Below are positions 2,348-62,884 of a stretch of 64,000 nucleotides of DNA, piece by piece. The stretch is from Liolophura sinensis. Lineage: Eukaryota > Mollusca > Polyplacophora > Chitonida > Chitonidae. Under the pieces are notes generated by a model, which saw only the letters and a list, made by a program, of their open reading frames with translations, ran no database searches and was not told where the DNA came from. The translations under genes and the position numbers were made by a program. The number at the start of each line of letters is the position of its first letter. The first letter of the stretch is position 1. Location of the stretch: positions 40,351,385 to 40,415,384 of the forward strand of contig NC_088295.1 in the NCBI RefSeq assembly GCF_032854445.1, written 5' to 3'.

Positions 2348-5300
2348 CTACACCCCTGGATGTTGTGATGATGTATACTTACATCTACTGTCCTGAGGCG
2401 TTAGAGGCATCTCCATAACCTTTTGTAAGCTGTCTATCCACTTGTCCATGTCTTCTTTGCTCTCTGCACTAAGGTAGAACACCCGATTAGGTGTGGTGAG
2501 GGTGAAACCAAACCCTGGGGCGTCCTTTCCGTCGGGCACACCTGCCTCCACAGAGTACCCACCACTGTCTTTATGACCAATGAATAACTCACCAAGGGCA
2601 AAGGCATTCTGGGAAAGGAAGAAATCATCTGAGAAATGGTAGATCAGGGACACCTGTCAAATGCCCTGCTTTTTTTTTTTTACTGATGTCAAACTTTCAT
2701 TGGTGACATCATCATAATGACATCATGTCCAACACACTGCGACATTTCAATGAAAGGTGATACATTGTAGACATTATCCTACAATCCATTTTCAACGTAA
2801 CAATGACTCAAGGTCCTGCTTTACACATCCCACCTCACGGGATTAAAAAATATGCTGCCTTCCCATTGCTCGATGTTGTATTTATTTATTTATTTGATTG
2901 GTGTTTTACGCCGTACTCAAGAATATTTCACTTATACGACGACGACCAGCATTATGGTGGGTGGAAACCGGGCACAGCCCGGGGGGAAACCCACAACCAT
3001 CCACAGGTTGCTGCAAGACCTTTCCCACTTACGGCCGGAGAGGAAGCCAGCATGAGCTGGACTTGAACTCACAGTGACTGCACTCGATATTGTACAATCA
3101 TGACAAAATAATATGTGAAAGATTACTACTACATATTTTGATACAAGCAGTCTGTGCACCTATATATATGTGTGTGCAATAAGCTGTACTGGACTGTCAC
3201 AAAATCTTGTGAAAGCCACAGGATCTGCATGTAAGGATAGAAGGTTTCAGGAAGGCCTGACACTTCACACTCAATTTCCATGGATGATAGTTGTACTGTC
3301 TGATTATCAATTACTTTGATACCGATTTATTATTGCCATCTATCATTAAAAAAAGCATACAGAAGGAACAGAGATGATTCTTCTTCCAGTATCAGATCAT
3401 ATCTCGCAAGTACATTCGTATTAAACCTGAAAAATGCAGAGTATAGTGGCAGGCCTGCTTGCAATAACCCCTATCCACAAAATCCTTCCATGGATTTATT
3501 TACTTGACTGATGTTATACACCATACTCAAGAATATTTTACTTATAAAAAATATAGTACGGCCTGGTGGGAGCAAACCAGGCAGAGTGAACGGGAATCTC
3601 ATGACAATCCACATGGTGTTGGGAGACCTTCTCAAGTAAAACCGGAAATGAAGCCAGCAAAGAGCTGGACTTAAACTCCACAGTGATCCGAATTGCGAGA
3701 GGCTTTGGTGACAAAATTTCTATGGAGGCCAAATATTGCTTATTCCGCAATATTTCCTTATTTTTGCACTGTTAAATAGTAAAAATGGCATGAACTTACA
3801 ATTTACCTCTCTCAACAAATTGCATATGATTTCATGGTATATTTAGACAAGTGCCCACATGATAAGCGTTAAGCGATATTCTTTAAATTTAACTATGTGA
3901 TTGTTGTTAAATGCCACACCCAAGAATTTTTCACTTATACAATGGTGGTCAGTTGTATAGGTGGAGATGCACTAGTAGATTTCTAAATTTGTCTCCTTCT
4001 ATCAAAAATACTTAAGTGAGTTTAATTCACATTTTGCCAACTGACCAGTGGGTCCTCGGTATACATGAGCTTCCTGCGATCCAGAGTAAACCATCGTCTT
4101 CTGTAGGGCTCATTGTTTGGGCCCATTTTACTCAACCAACCTTCCATAAGGAAGTCATGTGTTAAGTCTTCTGCCATCTGAAACATATGTAATATTCCAT
4201 ATGATCTTATGTGTAAGATTTTGTTATGCACAAAAAAAAAACATACATCTGTAGATTTTAACTGGCTAGTCATATCTTACTTCCGTTGATAAAACCAGGA
4301 TTTTTGCATTTTTCTCAATCTAAAGTTTAAATTCTGTCAACAAATTTATGTAAATCTACATTCGCCTCTGATTGAGATAAAAAAAAAATATGAATTGTTT
4401 GTCAACAAGTTGTTTACATAACAAGCTGAGGCTCATACACATGTTCTTAAGCTCTGAAATAATTAATGCACAGTTATCAGTAACCTAAGCTCTCTGAAGT
4501 TTGACTTTCTTGGTAGTTACAATGTATGCTTGGCTTTCTTGGTAGTTACAATGTATGCTTGACTTTCTAGGTAGTTACAATGTATGCTTGACTTTCTAGG
4601 TAGTTACAATGTATGCTTGACTTTTGAACTTACCTCATTTGCATCTCTGTCTGGGAAAGCGATCTGTTTTCTACTTAATTTAGCAGCTCGAATACAATGA
4701 AACCAATCTACTATTTCCTGGAAAAAAAGTCAAGTAGATTAATTTATCATACAGTTAGCATGAAAATTTATAAAATATTTAAGGTAACAAAATTAATATT
4801 CTTACATGATGTCTGTACTTAATATGCAAGACACAAGCAATATTATTTATTTATTTATTTATTTGATTGATGTTTTACGCCGTATATTTCATTTATATGA
4901 TGGCATCCAGCATTTTGGAGGCAAGAAACTGAGCACAGCCCTTGGGAAACCCAAGCAACAAAACAAGCTGGAAAAACAAGCAATATTAATTGAACTACAT
5001 GTTTTAGCACTGAAGCTCAAGAACTTACCTTAGGGTCATTGGCATACACAAACACATTCCGTGTTGAACCATTCTCATCAAACATTAACTGTAAAGCGCA
5101 TGGGTTTCCTGTTTTCTCAGGTACAAATACTGCATTAAGTGTATCCAAATTTATAGATGCTTTTGGCGTTCGTGCCTGCAGAGAAGATGTCTTCATTAAA
5201 ATTTTCATCAGAACATATATCCAATACATGATGAATGCTTCTACTTGGAGTCTTTATGTTAATATAAAAAAAGAAAAGAGGCACATGGAAAGAGCTACAT

Positions 5301-8300
5301 TTATACAGCTGCTTCTGACTCAAGTCAAAATCAAACACATGGATAAAAAATATGCTGGATACGTATGAAAGTACACGCAGGAAAAGATCACCTAACTGTA
5401 TTGAAACTTTATTTCACCTTCAGTTCTTTAATGAAAATTTTAAAAACATACGTTCTGAAGTGTGGAAATACCCTGTATTAAGAAGTTATATATAAAAAAA
5501 TTCATTTGATTGTTGCTCAACATGCTCAAGACTTTTTTATTATGTTCCTTGTATGATGGCAGACAGTTTTATAGGTAGGATAAAGTACTAGAATTAAACC
5601 ACAAACCACTGGCCAGTTACTGGAGATATATTTATTTATTTATTTGATTGCTGTTTTACACTGTATTCAAGAATATTTCACTTATACGACAGCGGACAGC
5701 ATTGTGGTGGGAGGAAAAAGGGCAGGCTGCGGGGGAAACCCACGACCATCCGCAAGCTGCTGGCAGACTTTCCCACATATCGCTGGGGAGGAAGCCAGCA
5801 TGAGCTGGACTTAAGCTCACAGTGACTGCATTAGGGTGAGGCTCCTGGGTCATTGCGCCGTGCCAACCCCTCAACTACTATATGATACATAGGTCATATT
5901 GGTGGATGGCATCACCTTCATGTAAACCCACACAAGAGAAAACCCTGACTACTTACTGTCACCAAAGCCTTGTGAAAAACAGAAGTAGGGGAATCTGTAA
6001 AATTCTGTCTGACATATATGACTCACCATTTCTTTATTGTAGTAGCTCAGTGTATTATTCTGAGTGGAGAGAGCTAATTTATGGGACTCGCCATTTTTTT
6101 TATTGTAGTAGCTGAGCATATTATTCTGAGTGGAGAGAGCAAATTTATGCGACTCACCACTTCTTTATTGAAGTAGCTCAGTGTATTATTCTGAGTGGAG
6201 AGAGCAAATTTACGAGGGTAATACTTCTTGTCATCTCTGCCTCGTTTGTACAAGGTGCCTTCCCTGTAGTTTGTGGTGTAAGCCGCCTGCCGTTCTGGGT
6301 CCTGAAACTCAGCCCTCTCGTATTTGGCATGGATCCACTGTTCTCTCAGCACACTAAATACAGATAAGAAGCCTGAGCAGGGACAAAGCCATTATGGTGC
6401 ACTTTCATGTACATCTGCTATCACACAAACCATTGACCTGGCTGAAGTCATGGAAAATCTGCAGGGAATCTGTAACCTCTCTGACTGACTGATCTAATAA
6501 GCTTTCAGTATGGTTAAGTAGTATCAAACATCATTTTTTGATTTTCACTATATATGCAGTTAAAACAAGCACTTAAACATAAAGAACAAAATCATGCAAT
6601 GGTCTTCTTCTTGGGGTGTAAAAAGAGCTTTAAATTACAGTTTTTCTATTGCCCTGTCGGTCAGTCTGGAAATTAGGTAGCTTGCCACTGGTGAAATATC
6701 TCTGTGGAGGGGAAAGTCCATAATCTTTATGAGTGGTTTCACATTAATCTGCTTTTTATTCAGAATCACACATTCCTAATTCACTATCTGGTGCCTTTTA
6801 CATTTATAGCCTGCTGCCTGATCCTTTATCAAAGTTATGCATTACTGAATTATCTCCCTTCAAGTCACTCCCTCATATAAATGTTGCTTTTTACACAAAT
6901 CCACTAAATCCACTATCGATGTTAGTGATTCAAAATAGGCATTTTCCTGTGATGTAACATTACGGGGAACAATGCCTATGCTGTCTGTTACTAGGGAGAT
7001 CAAGTGTTCTCCAGCTTTCATTCCATTTTACAGAATATGCAACATGTGTGAAAGGGAAAGGAGAAATCACTTACAGTGGATCTGTACTCTTTGGACGTCT
7101 GTAGAAAGCTGGAACAAATTGTTCATAGTTACTCTTTGCCTTTTCATTCCCCATGGCTGCCATAAGCTGCAAAAGACAAGCAGTAAAACAAATAATACTC
7201 ACACAATATGAAGGTATCAATTTAAATGACTAGGATTTACATAACATTACTTTATACACGTTTTACTTCTCATACAAATACAGAAATATTTTATAATGTA
7301 CCAGGTAACACAAACTTATGTTGATTTACAGTTAAATGATTTTAAGGCTATGCCCTAAAGCAAATTTCTATCCAAAAAGAAACAGCAGTTGAGAAATCAT
7401 TTCCCTTGCTAATGATACAGCATGAATCAACAATTCATCCAAGTCGATTGAAACATATCACAAAATTAGGCTGCAGGAAAATAGCGACAGTCAGGAGTCC
7501 TGTTATTTTTGTACCCTTCTAAACTGCAGGTTAGGGTTAACAACAACAGGGTGTCAACCTGTACTAGAGAGACAATTTTTCCAAGCGACAGGTAAAAACA
7601 AAGGTCACCTGCAACAGGTGTATTTTGGCATACCACTTGAGGAGATGTCTGAAATATTTTGGGGGTCAAAATTCAGCTAAATAAAACCAGTCTTAGCACT
7701 TTTAAGACTAGTCAGCCACAGTCTTATATTTGTGTTAAAGGAACATGAAGTTTTATATGTAGAAATACAACCACAAATATGCAATAGCTACAATATCCTG
7801 CGTCCAGAATTTTGTGTCACCTTACACCTAGGTCTCATTTTAAGTGAATGGACAATGTTAAAAATATGGAAATTCACATGTCAAATATTTGACCCACCAA
7901 CAGAAAGATGACCATCCTCTCTCACTTGAGATCAAGCTAAAGATGCTTTGTGACCTCTAATCCTGAACAAATATCCCACTTTTAGGTCTGAGTTTCAGTC
8001 CTGTACAGAATAATCTATAACTCTTGAGCCTACGGATGGACTGAGTGTCTTTCCTACCTCTAACTGACTATTCTCCCAGTTGTCTAGTTTTATGGACTTG
8101 ATTTTGCTGATGTGTGTGCCCATACTACGATGTATCCCTGCACAGTCCTGACAAAGAAACACACCAATGTTGTACGAAGCCCATTCTGGATCTGAAATAG
8201 AGTCAAGCACAGAAATAATTAATACAGGGTCTTTTTGTTAAAAATTACCTGCAGTGTAATTCCTTCTATAATATCAAGCTTGACCTGCATACACATGTGT

Positions 8301-15854: not shown

Positions 15855-18800
15855 TCACTCTAAGAAAAATATACTGTTGAAATGTGTTGCACAAAGTCGC
15901 TTAACTTCCTCTGAAAAAAAGAAGGAAATAAAATATGCAGAATTATCATAAATTTCAATCAAGTAACATTTTTAGGTTTTAACTTCTTTTTTTTACTCTG
16001 TAGCATATATCAGGTGAAGGACTCATCACAAGAGCAATTTTAAAAACATGAAGACAGTATTGTGGCAATATAGACTAGGATACTCAACAATGCTTGAAGG
16101 TGTGCACTGACATAATGGTCAGTCATGTTTTCTTAAATACTGAACAAGAATACATACATGTATGTTTTTTGTTTTTTTTTACAGAACAGTTTACTTCTAC
16201 AAACTGGAGTTAACACCAATACTTAGGTTACCTAAATTACCCTCTGCAGATTACTACTCTGTACGATTGGCAGCTCTACCAACTCACAACTACCATGGTG
16301 GCGTGTGGCCTACAGTACTGATTGCTGTGGTAATTAAGTGAACGTAACGTTAAAGAGTGCTTTGTGAAACTGGGCCCACAGGAAAACCCATAACCATCTG
16401 CAGACTGCTGGCAGACCTTCTCTCATACAGAGGAATCTGCATGAGCAGTGGCTAACCACCTTGGCCACAGAGGCACCCTCAGTTTCTGCAAGATACTCAT
16501 TTGTTTTACTGTTTCCTCTATGTATCACTATGAAGTTGACTTGAACTCCTGCACAACACTGCCATCATTTACATTAAAATTTACAAACCATGGATTTCTA
16601 CAGGACTGACAACAGTTAGCTTTTAAAAGATAGTCTTTTTCATTCTTTACTATGTAATGGACTTCCACAACTCCTGTGTGACACTGTACTAAGTTTACAT
16701 ACCATTGATTTCTATAAGATTGGCATTTTTCTGATTGAGCACAACATAAAACTCCCTCTGGTCAGACTTCTTGCCAACCACCCAACAGTCCGTCAGCGTC
16801 TTCATTACTGTCTCTCCATTCTCATCATTCCTACAACAATCAAATCCCGCCTACAGCAATCTCCATTTCTTCAGTTTTAAAAATAAAAATACTGACGAAA
16901 TAAATAAAGGTTGAAGACATTTAAATACATGATTGGAAAGCTTTGAAAAACTGGAAAATCATGAAAACAAACAACATCTGACAAAACCAAAAGTTGGATT
17001 TTAGGCTTTATGTTTATTTCGTTCTTAGATTTTTTAGTGTCAGCTAACTCGTAAGACACAAAATAAAGTTGGTGTCGCGTAATTGTCTTTAAAACAAATG
17101 AGTGACAGCCAGGAAATCTAAGATTGCATAAACCTACAAACCATGTAAGGTCAGAGTTGATATCGCCGAGCAGTTTCAGTGTCTCAGGGGGTATGTGGAT
17201 GTTGGCAGACTTCTTGCTGTCCGTGTGGACGGTGGTTTTTTGTGCCAGATTCATGTGGTTAAAGTATATGTACCTGTACTGAGGCTCTGCCAGGTTGCTG
17301 TCAACACAAAACAGAACAGAAGTGAAGTCTCTTTCCTAAGTCAACTATATACCTGTACTGAAGCTCTGCAAGGTTGCTGTCAACACAAAACAGAATAGAA
17401 GTGAAGTCTCTTTCCTAAGTCAACTATATACCTGTGCTGAAGCTCTGCCAGGTTGCTGTCAACACAAAACAGAATAGAAGAGAAGTCTCTTTCCTAATTC
17501 AACTATATACCTGTACTGAAGCTCTGACAGGTTGCTGTCAACACAAAATAGAACAGAAGTGAGGTCTCTTTCCTAAGTCAACTATATACCTGTACTGATG
17601 CTCTGCCAGGTTGCTGTCAACACAAAACAGAATAGAAGTGAAGTCTCTTTCCTTAGTCAACTATATACCTGTGCTGAAGCTCTGACAGGTTGCTGTCAAC
17701 ACAAAACAGAATAGAAGTGAAGTCTCTTTCCTAAGTCAACTATATACCTGTGCTGATGCTCTGCCAGGCTGCTGTCAACACAAAACAGAATAGAAGTGAA
17801 GTCTCTTTCCTTAGTCAACTATATACCTGTACTGAAGCTCTGACAGGTTGCTGTCAACACAAAACAGAATAGAAGTGAAGTCTCTTTCCTAAGTCAACTA
17901 TATACCTGTACTGAGGCTCTGCCAGGTTGCTGTCAACACAAAACAGAATAGAAGGGAAGTTTCTTTCCTAAGTCAACTATATACCTGTACTGAAGCTCTG
18001 CCAGGTTGCTGTTAACACAAAACAGAACAGAAGTGAAGTCTCTTTCCTAAGTCAACTATATACCTGTACTGAAGCTCTGCCAGGTGGCTGTCAACACAAA
18101 ACAGAGTAGAAGGGAAGTCTCTTTCCTAAGTCAACTATATACCTGTGCTGAAGCTCTGCCAAGTGGCTGTCAACACAAAACAGAATAGAAGAGAAGTCTC
18201 TTTCATAAGTCAACTATATACCTGAAGTGAAGCTCTGACAGGCTGCTGTCAACACAAAACAGAATAGAAGTGAAGTCTCTTTCCTAAGTCAACTATATAC
18301 CTGAAGTGAAGCTCTGACAGGTTGCTGTCAACACAAAACAGAATAGAAGAGAAGTCTCTTTCCTAAGTCAACTATATACCTGTACTGAAGCTCTGACAGG
18401 TTGCTGTCAACACACACAGAATAAAAGTGAAGTCTCTTTCCTAAGTCAACTATATACCTGTGCTGAAGCTCTGACAGGTTGCTGTCAACACAAAACAGAA
18501 TAGAAGAGAAGTCTCTTTCGTAAGTCAACTATATACCTGTACTGAAGCTCTGCCAGGTTGCTGTCAACACAAAACAGAATAGAAGTGAAGTCTCTTTCCT
18601 AAGTCAACTATATACCTGAAGTAAAGCTCTGCCAGGTTGCTGTTAACACAAAACAGAATAGAAGAGAAGTCTCTTTCCTAAGTCAACTATATACCTGTAC
18701 TGAAGCTCTGCCAGGTGGCTGTCAACACAAAACAGAGTAGAAGGGAAGTCTCTTTCCTAAGTCAACTATATACCTGTACTGAAGCTCTGCCAAGTGGCTG

Positions 18801-21800
18801 TCAACACAAAACAGAATAGAAGAGAAGTCTCTTTCCTAAGTCAACTATATACCTGAAGTGAAGCTCTGACAGGCTGCTGTCAACACAAAACAGAATAGAA
18901 GAGAAGTCTCTTTCCTAAGTCAACTATATACCTGAAGTAAAGCTCTGCCAGGTTGCTGTCAACACAAAACAGAATAGAAGGGAAGTCTCTTTCCTAAGTG
19001 AATGTTACACATATATCAGGGCAGTAGGTTTCATGGGTGAGGATATCAGTGTGCCTTAAGTAAATCAAAGATTTAATTCGGCGAATTTCCCCTCAAGTCA
19101 CCGTAAAAGGCAAAACTGTCTTCAGCAATCTTCATGTAAGAGCATATGCTTTGTGACATTGTGTGTAGACATGATGGCAAAATACATCAACTAAAGATGA
19201 CTTTGAGACAAATGAATTTTTGCAACACTCCAAATTAACATCAGTGCTTATATTGTCAAATTTAAAACTTTACCGAATATTTCAATTAGTAAATAAAAAC
19301 CGGCCTGCTCTGAATTACCTTCCTTGTTACCTGACAGTGACTATGACATAATGTGAGACTAGTTTTTGAGGCCTTAAACCAGCACAAACGGCGTGGGACA
19401 AGCATCGTGCATTATGTAGGTTATTTCACTACAGTGACAAATATTTTCTAGGCAACGAACATGATATCAGCCATTGGGAGTTGCAGAAATGTTGAGAGAT
19501 CTTAAATGGAGTCAATGATTTTCAGCCTAGATAGAATATACGTATCTGACAGAGTTCGCTGAAGCTATCAACCCCTATTATATTTAATGAGGGCCGAGAT
19601 TTTTAAATAACCTTCAAATGGATTTTAAAGAATACATGGCTGTTTATCCTGGGCTTTCCAAATTAGCTTACAAAATAAAATCTATTTTAAAGCTAAGTCT
19701 TCAACTAGCTTGTGCCTCTGTCACTCCAAACTTGCCTTTGGCGATTTTCTGAAGTCTCACCTAACCACAGCTTACTCCTAAAAACGCACCTTTTGAATGG
19801 GAGAGTGACCTCCAGAAAGTAATTCAAAGAGGCCCTATGGCAGGATGAAGCCCTGAGTATCTGTGCGGGCTGCCACAGAAGCCACAACAAGATTAATGTG
19901 AATTCTGGTTGATCTTACCCCAGTCCAGTTCTCTTGGAGTATTGTTCCCCAATATCTGAGGCCAGGGCTGTCAGCTGAGGGCCCAGGAAAGTGTCCAACT
20001 TCTGACACAGGTCAAAGGTTGGAGGGTTGGATGCTACAAACACATTGCAAATATTGCAAAATACATTAGGGCATGTACATGTAACCTTTGTAGTTATAGA
20101 ATATAGCTGTCAAATGAGCCTAGGCCATTGGCCTGCTTCACATTCAGTGGCTTTTTTGTCTAGTTATCATGCACCCTGTGGCCTGCAGTTTTAAGTGTTG
20201 TTGGCCCAAGAGTTAAGTGTTGTTATTGAAAAGTTACATGAAAACTCAACTGGTTTAAACTCAACAGGTGCCAACCATCAGTGACCTGTTAGGGATACAT
20301 CATCACCATGGTTAATAATGCAAGACACTGACACTGGTAATCTTGTAAACAATAGAAGACATTGACACTGGGAGCCTGGTAAACAATGGTTACCAGTGTC
20401 CATGTCTTCCATTGTCAATCTTGTAGACAATGGAACACACAATGGCATCAATAACCATGTAGATAATGGAACACACCACTGCAACAATAACCTTATAGAT
20501 AATGGAACACACCACTGCAACAATAACCGTGTAGATAATGGAACACACCACTGCAACAATAACCTCATAGATAATGGAACACACCACTGCAACAATAACC
20601 GTGTAGATAATGGAACACACCACTGCAACAATAACCGTGTAGATAATGGAACACACCACTGTAACAATAACCTCATAGATAATGGAACACACCACTGCAA
20701 CCTGCAACAATAGCCTTATAGATAATGGAACACACCACTGCAACCTGCAACAATAGCCTTATAGATAATGGAACACACCACTGCAACAATAACCTCATAG
20801 ATAATGGAACACACCACTGCAACCTGCAACAATAGCCTTATAGATAATGGAACACACCACTGCAACAATAACCTTGTAGATAATGGAACACACCACTGCA
20901 ACAATAATGGCAGACAGTGATTCGGATGTACTGATGTGTGTTTGGACACTCAGGCTCTTGTAGAAACAGTCACCACACAAACTCACCTCTAATGAACAGA
21001 CACACACTAGCACTGAGAGCCTTGTAGACCAACAATAAAGTGTCTTCATTTGGTCTTTCTGTATTCACATAAACTCTTGGGATTTTCCCCATCTTTTCCG
21101 TGTCTTTCATGTTTGGAGGGCCAGTAATAAACCTTTAGGGAAAAGTGAACAAAATAAATTTCAGTGTTGATTATACTGTAATTCTTCAACCATTTCGCAT
21201 ATTTGCAAGGTGTTTATTCAAGCATATTCTGAAGGCATTATTCTGTGCAGACTGACAAAATTATAAATTATAAACTTACAAATGTGCATAAATTGCCCAT
21301 GAAAGTTGCTCTTTCATATGCGAAAGTTGAGGAATTAGGGAAAGTACATTTAAAAGTCACTTTTCCAATATCAAACACAAAAAGCATGTTGAGAACATTT
21401 TGACTTTACTCTGACTATCATTCTGACCCATGAGTAACGCTGTTCTTTTGAGTACTCCTGTTATGATTTTCAAACAGATCTTTCATGACATTAAGGTTAA
21501 AAGTGAATACCATGCTGGTGATGCCACAGGAACATCTAGTGGCTGCTAGTTTTATTACGCTTGTACATACATTTTATTTACAACGAATGAAGGTTTGTGG
21601 GACATTCAAAGAGGTTCAGTTACAGAAAATTTATTCTAAAGGTGACACTTACTTGCCATAGTGCGCGCTGACTCCCAGTAAAGGGATCGCTGGCTTGGTC
21701 GAGTTGCCAACAGCAGCATGTAGCTCCTGCTCCATATAATTTGGGAACAGACTTGTCGTCAAGTATCGATAAATTATTCTCATATCATCTTGCTCCAAGC

Positions 21801-40842: not shown

Positions 40843-41039
40843 CATGCAGGATTTCAGTTTGCACTGACTAGTACTGTTTTAAGGTAAATGTCTTTCATCA
40901 TGTTGTTTTGTAGTGCTAGCGACAATGTTGTACATACTGAAGGCAAAGTTCTGCTAATGGCCTTTTATTCAGTTTGGCCATGCTGTGTTGTCCATATTAA
41001 ATGTAAGGTAATAGGTATTGTGCCTTGTGGCTATCTCAT

Positions 41040-42452
41040 ATTGTCCAGACTGAATGTAAGGTACTGCTGTTTCCCATGTCTTGTGACTATGTCATGTTGT
41101 CCAGACTGAATGTAAGGTACTGCTGTTTCCTTTGCCTTGTGACTATGTCATGTTGTCCAGACTGAATGTACGGCACTGCTGTTTCCTTTGCCTTGTGACT
41201 ATGTCATGTTGTCCAGACTGAATGTACGGCACTGCTGTTTCCTTTGCCTTGTGACTGTGTCATGTTGTCCAGACTGAATGTAAGGCACTGCTGTTTCCTT
41301 TGCCTTGTGACTGTGTCATGTTGTCCAGACTGAATGTAAGGGACTGCTGTTTCCTTGCCTTGTGACTATGTCATGTTGTCCAGACTGAATGTACGGCACT
41401 GCTGTTTCCTTTGCCTTGTGACTGTGTCATGTTTTCCAGACTGAATGTACGGCACTGCTGTTTCCTTTGCCTTGTGACTGTGTCATGTTGTCCAGACTGA
41501 ATGTAAGGGACTGCTGTTTCCTTTGCCTTGTGACTATGTCATGTTGTCCAGACTGAATGTACGGCACTGCTGTTTCCTTTGCCTTGTGACTGTGTCATGT
41601 TGTCCAGACTGAATGTAAGGCACTGCTGTTTCCTTGCCTTGTGACTATGTCATGTTGTCCAGACTGAATGTAAGGTACTGCTGTTTCCTTGCCTTGTGAC
41701 TATGTCATGTTGTCCAGACTGAATGTAAGGTACTGCTGTTTCCTTTGCCTTGTGACTATGTCATGTTGTCCAGACTGAATGTAAGGTACTGCTGTTTCCT
41801 TTGCCTTGTGACTATGTCATGTTGTCCAGACTGAATGTACGGCACTGCTGTTTCCTTTGCCTTGTGACTATGTCATGTTGCCCAGACTGAATGTGAGGTA
41901 CTGTTGTTCCTATGTCTTCTGACTATGTCACATTGTCCAGACTGAATGTACGGCACTGCTGTTTCCTTTGCCTTGTGGCTATGTCACATTGTCCAGACTG
42001 AATGTAAGATACTACTGTTTCCTGTGTCTTGTGGTTATGTCACATTGTCCAGACTGAATGTAAGATACTGCTGTTTCCTTTGCCTTGTGACTATGTCACA
42101 TTGTCCAGACTGAATGTAAGATACTACTGTTTCCTGTGTCTTGTGGTTATGTCACATTGTCCAGACTGAATGTAAGATACTGCTGTTTCCTTTGCCTTGT
42201 GACTATGTCACATTGTCCAGACTGAATGTAAGATACTACTGTTTCCTGTGTCTTGTGGTTATGTCACATTGTCCAGACTGAATGTAAGATACTGCTGTTT
42301 CCTTTGCCTTGTGACTATGTCACATTGTCCAGACTGAATGTAAGATACTGCTGTTTCCTTTGCCTTGTGACTATGTCACATTGTCCAGACTGAATGTAAG
42401 GTACTGCTGTTTGGCTATGACTTGTGGCTATGTTATGCTGTCCAAATTGACC
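41040..42452. repeat. 56-57-bp minisatellite, about 25 units
   Basis: The unit contains TGTCCAGACTGAATGTA, then GGCACTGCTGTTTCC and CTTGTGACTATGTCA. The right third alternates two variants (TTTGCCTTGTGAC and TGTGTCTTGTGGT) as a two-unit higher-order repeat. Decayed units extend left to about 40920. It is intergenic. Confidence 0.95.
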
Positions 42453-45310
42453 GTATGGTACTGTATAAAACTAGTCATGTCTATATACTGTACCCATTTC
42501 ATGTACATGTATGGTGGATATGTTTTTAATCTTTGTTGCTTGTGCAGAATTAGTGTTGTATAAATACAGAGCCTTTTTAATTCATTTTTAATGTTCACTA
42601 TATCAAGACCATTCCCAGTTTTAAAGTTTTGGAACTGTGTTGTCATTATGGTTACATGAGCGTCTTTTTGCTTGAATCTGACATGGTGTTATAGGCCAAA
42701 AATGTGAGAAAAGTAGGGTATGATTTTACTGATCAGGTCATACTTCTGCTGACAGTGCAGTTAAAAGTCCGTGATAAAGTTGATGGATGTTCTACATAGC
42801 CCTGATGCTGTATTTACTGTGCTCTACAGTAGGAACCAGTGTGTTGATTACATTTCTGTTACGTGGCATTTCACATTATTTGGATTGATTCACATTAATA
42901 TCTGCTCCTCTGCACATTTGTATTTGGGCTTTTAGATATTGAAGGATTGGACTTGCTCACTTCATATTACCTGGCTTCACTTTTCTGAAGGTCTTAGATG
43001 ATGATTTCTCTTGTTGTAATATTTTTATCTTGCATTCCCTTTTTACTCACATGGCTTTCTTAGCTCACCATCCAAGATGTGTTTTTATGTGAAACATATG
43101 CCCAGTGTATGGGCGTATCTCAAATAATCATTGTTGCAATCATGTCTTGTCTTTATTTTATTTTCAAGTTTTAAAACCGGCTTTATTTATGTACTAGTAT
43201 ACACCACTCATAATGTCAGTATTTTTCCTGTTAAATCTTACGCCAATAGCAGCCTTTCAGCCTTTGCAGTTTTTTTTTTCTTTTTTCTTTTTTTTAATGT
43301 TTTTTTATTTTTATTATGCCTTGTCGAAAACAGACCGAACTGCATCCAGCTGTGTGTCCAGCTTGAGTAACATCATGCTTAAATTGTCTCAGAATGTCTG
43401 AACTTTTTCATACATAGTTTGTGCTATATGTTCTGCTGGTAACTGGTTGGAAAAGTTTTTGTAGGGACCTTTTAATTCCACCAGCTAATCGGTCATGTGT
43501 ATATAAGTCATGTGTATTCTTGTTGTACAGAAATAAATGATCGTTTGCACCGGGTGTGTTCTCCTAAGGCTACATACAGGCATCTAGAAATAATCATTAT
43601 GGAAGACACAAGCGATAGTTTTCAGAGTTTTTTTGTGTATTCTTGTTGTACAGAAATAAATGATCGTTTGCACCGGGTGTGTTCTCCTAAGGCTACATAC
43701 AGGCATCTAGAAATAATCATTATGGAAGACACAAGCGATAGTTTTCAGAGATAGGCTGTGTCACTACAGTTGTCCTCGCTTAAACACAGCAGGGTAGGAT
43801 TAATTCACACCACCAGATTCCAGGTCACTTTTCCAAGGCTTCCTTAATGTTGGGGACAGGTCGTGGCCTTGCCTATGAGATCCATTGGACAGGGAATTGT
43901 AGACTACCCCTTCAGTGTAGGCATACGTGGTGACAAGAAACGGACGATGACGCTCGTGAAACGTTGGAGAACACCTTCACTTAAGCCCCGTCCAGACTAT
44001 CCAACATTGTTCAACTTTTGTTGACTCAACAGTAAGTTAAATGCTGTTGAGGTAAGTTGAGTGCCCCGTCCACACAATAATAAATCTGAGGAGGAGATAA
44101 TGAACCTTACTGTGACGATATAAAGGAATGTCTCAGCACACACAAGTACACACACACACACACCCAAGAATATGTATTTTCATGTATAAGCAATCTGATA
44201 TTACATTTATCAACGAAATGCGGAAGCAGATAAGTTAAATCTCTGTACAGGCCAGGAGGTGTGAGAGCTTATTGGCTCTGAGCCTGGTTGCGCCTGCTTG
44301 CAGCGAGTGTATAAGGCCTTTGACTTATGAGGTCATGTGTTCAAATCCCCCTTCGCTGTTGCTTTCGCGGCTTTAAGTTTGTTATTCACCTTGCGAAGGT
44401 GGGCAGTTTAGACCCGCCACATTCGTTCCTCCATCCAAAAATGACTGCTGTCCTTTAAATTAAAAATTCTGGAGCAATGCGTTTTAAAGGACCAGTCAAT
44501 TACGACTGTGTCAAATTGTCTGAATAATTAATTCATAATTAATAAAAAAATAAGTACAATTCTAAGAAGAATGAACCCTCGATCTTCCGCATACGTATAC
44601 TACGAATATATACACTTTTTTTTTACTATAAATAATCAAACATTTGGCCTAAATTCGACCTAAATGCACGGCCCCTAACCATCCAAACTGCCAATGGGCA
44701 AGATATTGCTGTATATACTGAACTGGTTCGGTTCCAGATGATGGTGTTTACTAACTCTGGTGGACGACAGAATCTTTGCTAAGCCTGTAGTTTATAAACG
44801 TCAGCCAAAACGTCTTTCCGGAGTCTAGTTTATAAACGTCGGTCAAGACAGTAAAACACAAAGGTGATGTCATTTTCTTGAACAAGGATAACTATGGAAC
44901 CTTCATATAGATATTATGCGCTTATAGGTATATTTGATCTAAATGCATTAATCTGTAACTATCACCCAAGCGCCCATGGCAAGATGTTGCATAGCATTCA
45001 GGAATCATAAATTACGGTGGCCGTGTGTATTGTACTCTTCCGGATTAAGGGGACAGTTTGGAACCACGCTGCAGGTAAGCCTATAACACTCGCTATACGC
45101 TACACTCTATTGGCCGTTTAAGTATGAAAACATATACATGATTACAGAACCATTTCTCTTCCCCCGCGGCTAAAACCGTTAGGATTCTCCAAAGGCAGAA
45201 AATCAAACTTACAAGGCTATTAAGTGCAAAACCTTTCAGGGGTCTTAAGGCCTATAATGGTTATACCTGGTTACTCCAGTGGAAATTTTCATTCTTCAAG
45301 CAGATACCGC
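42453..45310. other. Intergenic, no supported gene
   Basis: Holds the 123-bp duplication (43511), a (CA)n tract at 44147-44164, and a short direct repeat containing AGTTTATAAACGTC near 44790 and 44827. The remainder is AT-rich and unremarkable. Confidence 0.5.
43511..43756 (+). repeat. 123-bp in-frame tandem duplication, exon-like
   Basis: Two copies, 123 bp apart, are identical over about 117 bp. Each starts with a pyrimidine-rich stretch and TTGTTGTACAG, an acceptor-like site, then an open frame EINDRLHRVCSPKATYRHLE continuing to MEDTSDSFQ. As 123 is a multiple of three the frame passes through both copies. No flanking exon or family was recognised, so this may be a noncoding duplication. 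Confidence 0.75.
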
Positions 45311-54605: not shown

Positions 54606-55310
54606 ACCAATAATGCCTCATTTTCGCTATGGTGTAACAAAGGCCCACGAGCCTCTAACCACATGTTGCTTATTCGCTATGGTATAACCTAGGTCCACGA
54701 ACCTCTAACCCATGATGCGGCGTGTTCGCTCTGGTATAACCTAGGCCCACGAGCCTCTAATCAATGAAGCAGCGTGTTCGCTATGGTATAACCTAGACCC
54801 ACGAACCTCTAACCAAATGATGCGGCGTGTTCGCTCTGGTATAACCTAGGCCCACGAGCCTCTAATCAATGAAGCAGCGTGTTCGCTATGGTATAACCTA
54901 GACCCACGAACCTCTAACCAATGATGCAGCGAGTTCGCTATGGTATAACCTAGACCCACGAACCTCTAACCAATGATGCCGCGTGTTTGCTATGGTGTAA
55001 CCTCGGCTCACGAGCCTCTAACCAATGATGCAGCGTGTTCGCTATGGTATAACCTAGACCCACGAATCTCTAGCCAGTTACACTGTGTGTTCGCTATGGT
55101 ATAACCTAGCCTCTAACCAATGACACCCCGTGTTCGCTATGGATGACCTAGGCCCACGAGCCTCTAACCAATGACCGCGTGTTCTCTATGGTATAACCTA
55201 GACCCACGAGCCTCTAACCAATGACACCCCGTTTTCGCTATGGTATAACCTATACCCACGAGCCTCTATCAATGACATCACGTCCCACGAGCCTCTAACC
55301 ACTAATGTCG
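54606..55310. repeat. Minisatellite of about 52 bp, 13 units (duplication copy 1)
   Basis: Units carry TTCGCTATGGTATAACCTAG, then CCCACGAGCCTCTAACCAATGA. Several units are shortened. It lies 0.35 kb after the short paralogue. Confidence 0.92.
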
Positions 55311-55435
55311 AAGTGGGCGTTGTTTGCTTCAGGCTAGATTCACCCTGTTTTCTCCATCCATAAATCTGACCACATGCCGTAAAATTCTTACACTGTGTAC
55401 AGCCTCAATCAAGTTATGTAAACTCTAACGCATAT

Positions 55436-55613
55436 GATGCTGGCTTTCTGTCCGGCCGTACGTGGGAAGATCAGCCAGCAACTTGTGGATGGTCGTGGGT
55501 TTTCCGCAAGCTCTTCCCGGTTTCCTCCCACCATAATCCTGGCCGCCGACGTATCAGTGAAATATTCGGCGTAAAACATCAATGAAATAAATAAATAAAT
55601 AAATAAATAAATC
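55436..55613 (+). mobile_element. SINE-A, 5'-truncated, copy 1
   Basis: GATGCTGGCTTTCTGTCCGG through AATATTCGGCGTAAAACATC and a tail of AAAT repeats. Confidence 0.85.
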
Positions 55614-61925: not shown

Positions 61926-62581
61926 CTTGACCAATAATGCCTCATTTTCGCTATGGTGTAACAAAGGCCCACGAGCCTCTAACCACATGCCGCTTATTCG
62001 CTATGGTATAACCTAGGTCCACGAACCTCTAACCCATGATGCGGCGTGTTCGCTCTGGTATAACCTAGGCCCACGAGCCTCTAATCAATGATGCAGCGTG
62101 TTCGCTATAGTATAACCTAGACCCACGAACCTCTAACCAATGATGCAGCGAGTTCGCTATGGTATAACCTAGACCCACGAACCTCTAACCAATGATGCAG
62201 CGAGTTCGCTATGGTATAACCTAGACCCACGAACCTCTAACCAATGATGCCGCGTGTTTGCTATGGTGTAACCTCGGCTCACGAGCCTCTAACCAATGAT
62301 GCAGCATGTTCGCTATGGTATAACCTAGACCCACGAATCTCTAGCCAGTTACACTGTGTGTTCGCTATGGTATAACCTAGCCTCTAACCAATGACACCCC
62401 GTGTTCGCTATGGATGACCTAGGCCCACGAGCCTCTAACCAATGACCGCGTGTTCTCTATGGTATAACCTAGACCCACGAGCCTCTAACCAATGACACCC
62501 CGTTTTCGCTATGGTATAACCTATACCCACGAGCCTCTATCAATGACATCACGTCCCACGAGCCTCTAACCACTAATGTCG
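61926..62581. repeat. Minisatellite of about 52 bp, 12 units (duplication copy 2)
   Basis: Same array as in copy 1 with one unit fewer near the left, consistent with the 52-base change of offset between the duplicates. Confidence 0.92.
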
Positions 62582-62704
62582 AAGTGGGCGTTGTTTGCTT
62601 CAGGCTAGATTCACCCTGTTTTCTCCATCCATAAATCTGACCACATGCCGTAAAATTCTTACACTGTGTACAGCCTCAATCAAGTTATGTAAACTCTAAC
62701 GCAT

Positions 62705-62884
62705 ATGATGCTGGCTTTCTGTCCGGCCGTACGTGGGAAGGTCAGCCGGCAACTTGTGGATGGTCGTGGGTTTTCCGCAAGCTCTTCCCGGTTTCCTCCC
62801 ACCATAATCCTGGCCGCCGACGTATCAGTGAAATATTCGGCGTAAAACATCAATGAAATAAATAAATAAATAAATAAATAAATC
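62705..62884 (+). mobile_element. SINE-A, 5'-truncated, copy 2
   Basis: Duplicate of the element at 55436, with the same internal changes and the same AAAT-repeat tail. Confidence 0.85.

Follow-up and report, generated by a model that had tools for sequence, protein, structure and literature searches.

In the 64,000-nucleotide (nt) stretch of the chiton Liolophura sinensis analyzed here (NCBI RefSeq assembly GCF_032854445.1, contig NC_088295.1, positions 40,351,385 to 40,415,384 of the forward strand; hereafter the window), intron 9 of CCZ1 carries a tandem array of 21 copies of a 79-bp unit that straddles the intron 9/exon 10 boundary, so that every copy bears a duplicated acceptor and the beginning of the exon. 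We consider this array to be, with a probability of about 0.85, a neutral mirage, the name given in amphioxus to minisatellites lying over exon-intron boundaries (PMC3087553, PMC3902484), in which the splice signals were copied rather than selected. This interpretation rests on the anatomy of the array, its phase, the strengths of its splice sites, the frequency of similar copying in a sample of junctions, and the absence of detectable coding constraint. In kind the repeat is ordinary; what is unusual is its location, and splice sites are frequently copied in this genome.

Anatomy of the 79-bp array and its position in CCZ1

Tandem Repeats Finder (TRF) reported the array with a period of 79, 21.9 copies, 93% matches and a score of 2983 (Table 1). 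Twenty-two acceptors were found on the minus strand, 21 in the copies and the true acceptor of exon 10 at 17297, and ACAG was kept in all 22. Every copy (21/21) ended in CAG|GTATAT, none of the 24-nt segments contained a stop codon, and the spacers measured 55 nt in 20 of the 21 cases and 54 nt in the remaining one. Exon 10, from which the exonic portion of the unit derives, itself holds an internal CAG|GTACAT. Exon 9 ends in ...CTGGG|GTAAGA at 19919, and the joins GG|C (exon 9 end) and AG|C (copy end) are both in phase with exons 9 and 10; the frame is therefore kept whatever the number of units included. The first copy deviated at 5 upstream columns at which the other 21 rows agreed, which is the mirage feature whereby edge copies escape the homogenization of inner copies. 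These observations bear out most of the structural claims of a preliminary description made from the letters of the window, namely a 79-bp unit with an acceptor, a stop-free 24-nt segment and CAG|GTATAT, a phase that accommodates any number of units, a related CAG|GTACAT inside exon 10, and 21 decoy acceptors upstream of the true one, as counted in our unit table. Its figure of about 22 units copied from the start of exon 10 needs slight amendment in two respects: the count is 21 copies plus the true exon, and the unit also contains the end of the intron.

The joined exons matched 9l0d_B (CCZ1 homolog B), which we take to be human CCZ1, with E = 3.1e-55, and more weakly (E about 2e-10) two chains bearing the name 'Caffeine, calcium, zinc sensitivity 1', presumably fungal Ccz1. 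The Pfam domain Intu_longin_3 was matched at residues 42-138 of the CCZ1 fragment, and the array insertion point fell, by our own count, at residue 38, in the linker preceding this third longin-like domain. Both 'Caffeine, calcium, zinc sensitivity 1' chains have extra residues in the loop at the insertion point; for this reason the loop might be tolerant of inserts, which leaves room for the copies to act as microexons.

The genome searched comprised 609,464,459 bases in 632 contigs and represents one haplotype. A 161-base query taken from the array gave 21 matches, all at the CCZ1 locus, with one candidate place scored and other places thereby not excluded. A search for CCZ1 elsewhere, in which 10 candidates were scored, gave 3 matches, all to exons of the gene itself, and no retrocopy showing spliced units was found among these 10 candidates.

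Table 1. Coordinates, within the window, of CCZ1 features and of the two arrays that copy a splice junction
Feature	Position	Strand	Basis
CCZ1 exon 9 (number taken from the preliminary description)	19919..20033	-	acceptor by eye; donor GGG|GTAAGA placed; protein match
CCZ1 intron 9, 2621 nt, about two-thirds of its length occupied by the array	17298..19918	-	
True CCZ1 exon 10, 156 nt, start NLAEPQYRYIYFNHMNLAQ	17142..17297	-	protein match and human CCZ1 alignment
Probable mirage minisatellite, 21 x 79-bp unit (55-nt intron end + 24-nt exon start), running into true exon 10	17267..18999	-	TRF and unit table
Decoy acceptors (21), with a 24-nt segment free of stops and CAG|GTATAT after each	17353..18955	-	unit table and site scores
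First exon-like bases of decoys	18955, 18876, 18797, 18718, 18639, 18560, 18481, 18403, 18324, 18245, 18166	-	
First exon-like bases of remaining decoys	18087, 18008, 17929, 17850, 17771, 17692, 17613, 17534, 17455, 17376	-	
Second mirage of the window, 65/66-bp unit, 3 copies, over the donor of an ADAP (centaurin-alpha) exon ending at 6158	6020..6212	-	TRF, unit listing, junction

Splice-site strength and size limits

Splice-site matrices were derived from this genome (83 donors, 97 acceptors), using sites that each scored at least 3 on a consensus matrix, and because of this pre-selection the percentiles given here refer to fairly strong sites. The decoy acceptors scored 9.9-12.0 (38th-75th percentile of sampled sites), as compared with 12.55 for the true acceptor. 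The decoy donors (CAG|GTATAT) scored 7.68, at the 11th percentile, and the exon 9 donor 7.89, at the 13th, while the internal CAG|GTACAT of exon 10, at 5.2, lay below every sampled donor. Exon 10's own donor, ATG|GTTTGT, is weak. If a decoy acceptor were spliced but its partner donor were not, a stop would be met at a distance of 37-151 nt in each of the 21 copies, the distance being 73 nt in 17 of them.

Among 50 confident introns none was shorter than 186 nt, and among 59 exons none was shorter than 85 nt, as against 55 and 24 nt in the CCZ1 units; the sample was small, and the protein-domain search by which it was obtained misses very small exons by construction. The spacers between units, put forward as putative 55-nt introns in the preliminary description, do have that length, apart from the single 54-nt spacer, and are shorter than any of the sampled introns.

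Coding constraint on the 24-nt segment

The 24-nt segments have a length that is a multiple of three, keep the phase and contain no stop. Among copies 2-21 and the true unit, nucleotide diversity was 0.117 in the 24-nt part versus 0.040 in the spacer, and 10 of 24 columns versus 13 of 55 were polymorphic. The latter difference was not significant (P = 0.12), and diversifying selection was accordingly rejected as an account of the higher variability. The 11 changes within the 24 nt comprised 2 synonymous, 9 nonsynonymous and 0 stop changes, where 17, 51 and 4, respectively, would arise among the 72 single changes that the consensus allows; the lack of stops is uninformative since only 4 of 72 random changes produce one. 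The proline of the exon 10 E-P-Q motif, which is common to human CCZ1, was replaced by L in 18 copies and by H in 2, and was retained in only 1 of 21. The longest run of invariant columns (15, over the donor) was also considered as a signal and set aside (P = 0.086, not significant). Neither the diversity nor the 2:9:0 distribution of changes gave any sign that the exon-derived part of the copies is under coding constraint. The headline claim of the preliminary description, that the units are potential microexons adding 8-residue repeats, is left without positive support by this result, the loss of the proline, the sizes outside the sampled range, and the fact that comparable arrays without this geometry occur at other junctions, as described below.

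Splice-copying arrays elsewhere in the genome

The frequency of such copying was estimated from exon matches to the kinesin, TCP1 and myosin Pfam families, of which 216 of the 263 listed were used, yielding 376 junctions. Sample 1 consisted of 154 exon matches in 36 stretches chosen for dense exons (189,636 bases), and sample 2 of 62 exons in 60 short stretches around single exons (77,935 bases). A junction was scored as positive when the 30 bases centered on it had a near copy (25/30) within 400 bases. By this measure, 4 of 138 acceptors and 9 of 130 donors were positive in sample 1, and 1 of 55 acceptors and 2 of 53 donors in sample 2. Close tandem copies were thus present at 16 of 376 junctions, in 14 arrays (one array, L025, was counted three times) and at donors as well as acceptors. 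Because junctions were placed by a simple score, some boundaries are uncertain: 5 of the 16 positives scored below 3 (L025 acceptor, 0.7; L035, 2.7; L047, 1.5; L054, 2.9; L071, 2.3), and the L006 acceptor at 407 is also doubtful. Three further arrays (L013, L018 and L028) abut exon matches and appear in the TRF list, outside the junction positives.

Clear cases, read by eye, were a TCP1-family donor in a 66-bp unit (L006), a myosin acceptor in a 95-bp unit whose exon start encodes NPLLEAFGNAKT (L038), and a kinesin acceptor in a 64-bp unit with exon bases for EAMSINKSL (L071); the last two are known motifs of myosin and kinesin. A further series was seen at L018:1646-3006, where about 43 copies of a 32-bp unit (TTTGTAG|GTTTGAGCG) reach a myosin exon and supply 42 acceptors of adequate score. 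The second mirage of the window lies over the donor of an ADAP exon matching PDB 3feh (E = 5.7e-18), and its copies also hold CTCAG followed, after 33 or 34 nt, by GTGAGT or GCGAGT. At lower coordinates than the ADAP array, a 29-bp array (4501-4624) ends within ~10 nt of a donor-like site, GGTAAGTTCAAAAG, on the minus strand.

Near copies were not concentrated at the junctions. In sample 1, they were found for 0-1.4% of positions lying 45 nt or more inside the exon, for 2.9% of acceptor and 6.9% of donor junctions, and for about 10-12% of positions 240-285 nt deep in the intron; the profile of sample 2 rose from exon to intron in the same way. The idea that arrays are seeded at splice sites was therefore rejected, neither profile having a peak at the junction, and with no excess over the intron interior the arrays seem simply to run across junctions. 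TRF arrays with a period of at least 10 covered 13.4% of the 189,636 bases of sample 1, and the simplest account is that of a minisatellite-rich genome in which some arrays begin or end across a junction and copy it.

Origin of the array and alternative explanations

We propose that slippage or unequal crossing-over produced a tandem duplication of 79 bp across the CCZ1 intron 9 acceptor, made up of the last 55 nt of the intron and the first 24 nt of exon 10, which would then have expanded to 21 copies. Each copy would bear splice signals and an in-phase 24-nt segment because the copied stretch contained them, and not through selection. The pre-mRNA would present 21 upstream decoy acceptors nearly as strong as the true one; normal CCZ1 mRNA would require splicing of exon 9 to the true acceptor, and we infer that the spliceosome mostly passes over the decoys. 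A plausible reason is that an exon-like segment of 24 nt beside an intron-like one of 55 nt is not long enough to be defined. The preliminary description had offered an ordinary minisatellite that happened to catch an acceptor as the alternative to its own headline, and it is this alternative that we adopt.

Several results weigh against a neutral origin. The exon 10 donor scored 1.76, under all 83 sampled donors, so that exon definition may not strongly favor the true acceptor over the decoys. CCZ1 was, moreover, the only one of 19 arrays in which acceptor and donor alike reached the 5th percentile in every copy, at a constant spacing that is a multiple of three (24 nt), although a single array of this kind is unsurprising since one spacing in three is a multiple of three. 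Among the other arrays, 7 copies of the 66-bp TCP1-family array had acceptor and donor 32 nt apart, a distance that is no multiple of three; scattered pairs, some at a multiple of three, were found in two more, and L047 had a single pair at 52 nt. When the copies of 12 arrays were compared with their own consensus, those below 75% identity being dropped (for example, 3 of 24 in L025 and 1 of 21 in CCZ1), only 3 of 24 core columns were polymorphic versus 6.0 expected from random columns (P = 0.12). The matched-dinucleotide mean for the 12 arrays was 0.89 at the junction versus 0.87, the junction value having been pulled down by ADAP, an array with only one usable copy; without ADAP (11 arrays), junction dinucleotides were kept at 0.97 versus 0.90 for the same dinucleotide elsewhere in the unit (P = 0.027), in a test that is tilted because ungapped alignment outward from the junction costs distant dinucleotides more. 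When the comparison was confined to identical dinucleotides no more than 12 nt away, the junction was better kept in 3 of 9 arrays, worse in 2 and equal in 4. In CCZ1, the invariance of the four AG/GT bases had P = 0.24 and that of the 13-position donor-plus-acceptor set P = 0.007, both values assuming independent columns, an assumption that the shared ancestry of the copies violates. A first count, in which 107 of 112 copies had intact core dinucleotides and identity was 0.978 versus 0.901, was discarded, since comparing copies with the true junction counts shared differences many times; the ADAP junction had also been misplaced in it. These comparisons give no more than a hint that the splice dinucleotides of copies are preferentially kept.

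That hint would favor a working variable-number microexon cassette, in which any number of the 24-nt units could be spliced in, placing octapeptides before the third longin-like domain; from 0 to 21 in-frame microexons would be insertable, and minisatellite length together with splicing choice would set the repeat number of the protein. Such a cassette would also suit the phase-compatible segments, with AG and GT intact in all 21 copies, donors at the 11th and acceptors at the 38th-75th percentile, and an insertion point at residue 38, just before Intu_longin_3, in a loop where two Ccz1 chains have extra residues. However, the 24 nt were not less variable than the spacer, the human-shared proline has gone from 20 of the 21 copies, and introns of 55 nt and exons of 24 nt fall outside the sampled range (minima of 186 and 85 nt, in a sample blind to very small exons). 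On balance, we regard both the cassette and its proposed control of protein repeat number as very improbable. Another possibility is an effect on gene output: were the decoy acceptors often used without their partner donors, transcripts would run into a stop and presumably undergo mRNA decay, so that array length would tune CCZ1 expression downward. The 21 decoys at 9.9-12.0 beside a true acceptor at 12.55, and the read-through stops in 21/21 copies, speak for this; yet regular mRNA is reported from amphioxus mirages in the passages available of PMC3087553 and PMC3902484, and the L018 array with its 42 acceptors of adequate score at a myosin exon indicates that such arrays exist at other genes, so that we think frequent decoy use improbable. 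Long tandem arrays can also be mis-assembled, and artefacts probably do occur in this assembly, to judge from COX1 standing seven times at ~15.5-kb steps on contig C99. Nevertheless, only one pair of units (4 and 12) was identical among copies 2-22, similar arrays were found at other genes, and the assembly, according to the part of its report available (PMC11068029), was built on PacBio HiFi reads together with Omni-C data; an artefact at CCZ1 is hardly credible.

Other repeats in the window and in the assembly

A perfect 123-bp tandem duplication at 43511-43750 (100% match, TRF) begins with an acceptor-like sequence, TTGTTGTACAG, and, as read by eye, keeps a frame open up to a stop after the second copy; it is perhaps a very recent duplication of an exon boundary. 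The 56-bp array at 41021-42463 (25.8 copies), to which no known exon was tied, has many copies holding TTGTCCAG, 12 nt and a GTACTG-like end. Two 52-bp arrays, at 54623-55612 and 61930-62883, have very similar TRF consensus sequences, are each followed by an AAAT run and lie ~7.3 kb apart; judged from the TRF consensus, with the units not aligned, they are probably a segmental duplication. Outside the window, the COX1 series of contig C99 (108,685 bases) is probably a mitochondrial concatemer and an assembly artefact; translated with the invertebrate mitochondrial code, the COX1 protein appears molluscan.

Significance and comparison with known systems

The CCZ1 array extends mirage arrays to a mollusc. 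No mollusc report of such arrays was found in the literature searched, whose coverage was partial and included few subscription papers, and as far as these searches go the lineage, the number of copies, the phase-neutral geometry of the cassette and the rough frequency are new. That frequency (16/376, from three gene families) suggests that about 1 splice junction in 25 has been tandemly copied in this chiton, often with intact signals. It raises the question of how the spliceosome ignores dozens of near-equal decoys beside a true site, and whether copied splice sites give rise to new introns or exons. For such questions the CCZ1 array is well suited as a test case, because use of a copy would either stay in frame with the partner donor or meet a stop.

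Intron gain has been described by tandem duplication of an AGGT proto-splice site (PMC2891723), and a mirage model of it has been put forward (PMC3087553), according to the portions of these papers available. As in AGGT duplication, tandem copies at CCZ1 bring AG|GT-type signals that could define new introns; unlike the products of that process, they lie inside the existing intron 9 and do not place a new intron in coding sequence.

Closest to the CCZ1 array are the amphioxus mirages, known at Adh3 and the globins BflGb6 and BflGb9, with PGBD5 and troponin C also named; in the available passages, reverse transcription PCR indicates undisturbed splicing, somatic instability is reported for Adh3, and the authors propose mirages as a source of new introns (PMC3087553, PMC3902484). 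The CCZ1 array shows three features of mirages: a unit spanning an exon-intron boundary, splice signals in the copies, and a divergent edge copy. In amphioxus, either the 3' or the 5' boundary is copied, in units of 10-72 bp (Adh3) or 150-160 bp (globins), and many copies carry AG/GT, as do all 21 at CCZ1 (PMC3087553, PMC3902484). Beyond these likenesses, the CCZ1 array differs in its host, a chiton rather than a cephalochordate; in its copy number, 21 as against 6 and 3 in two amphioxus BflGb6 haplotypes; and, as far as those passages describe the amphioxus copies, in that each copy doubles as a phase-neutral AG...GT cassette of 24 nt. For the chiton, the junction sample adds a frequency of copying (16/376), a figure for which the amphioxus passages offer no counterpart.

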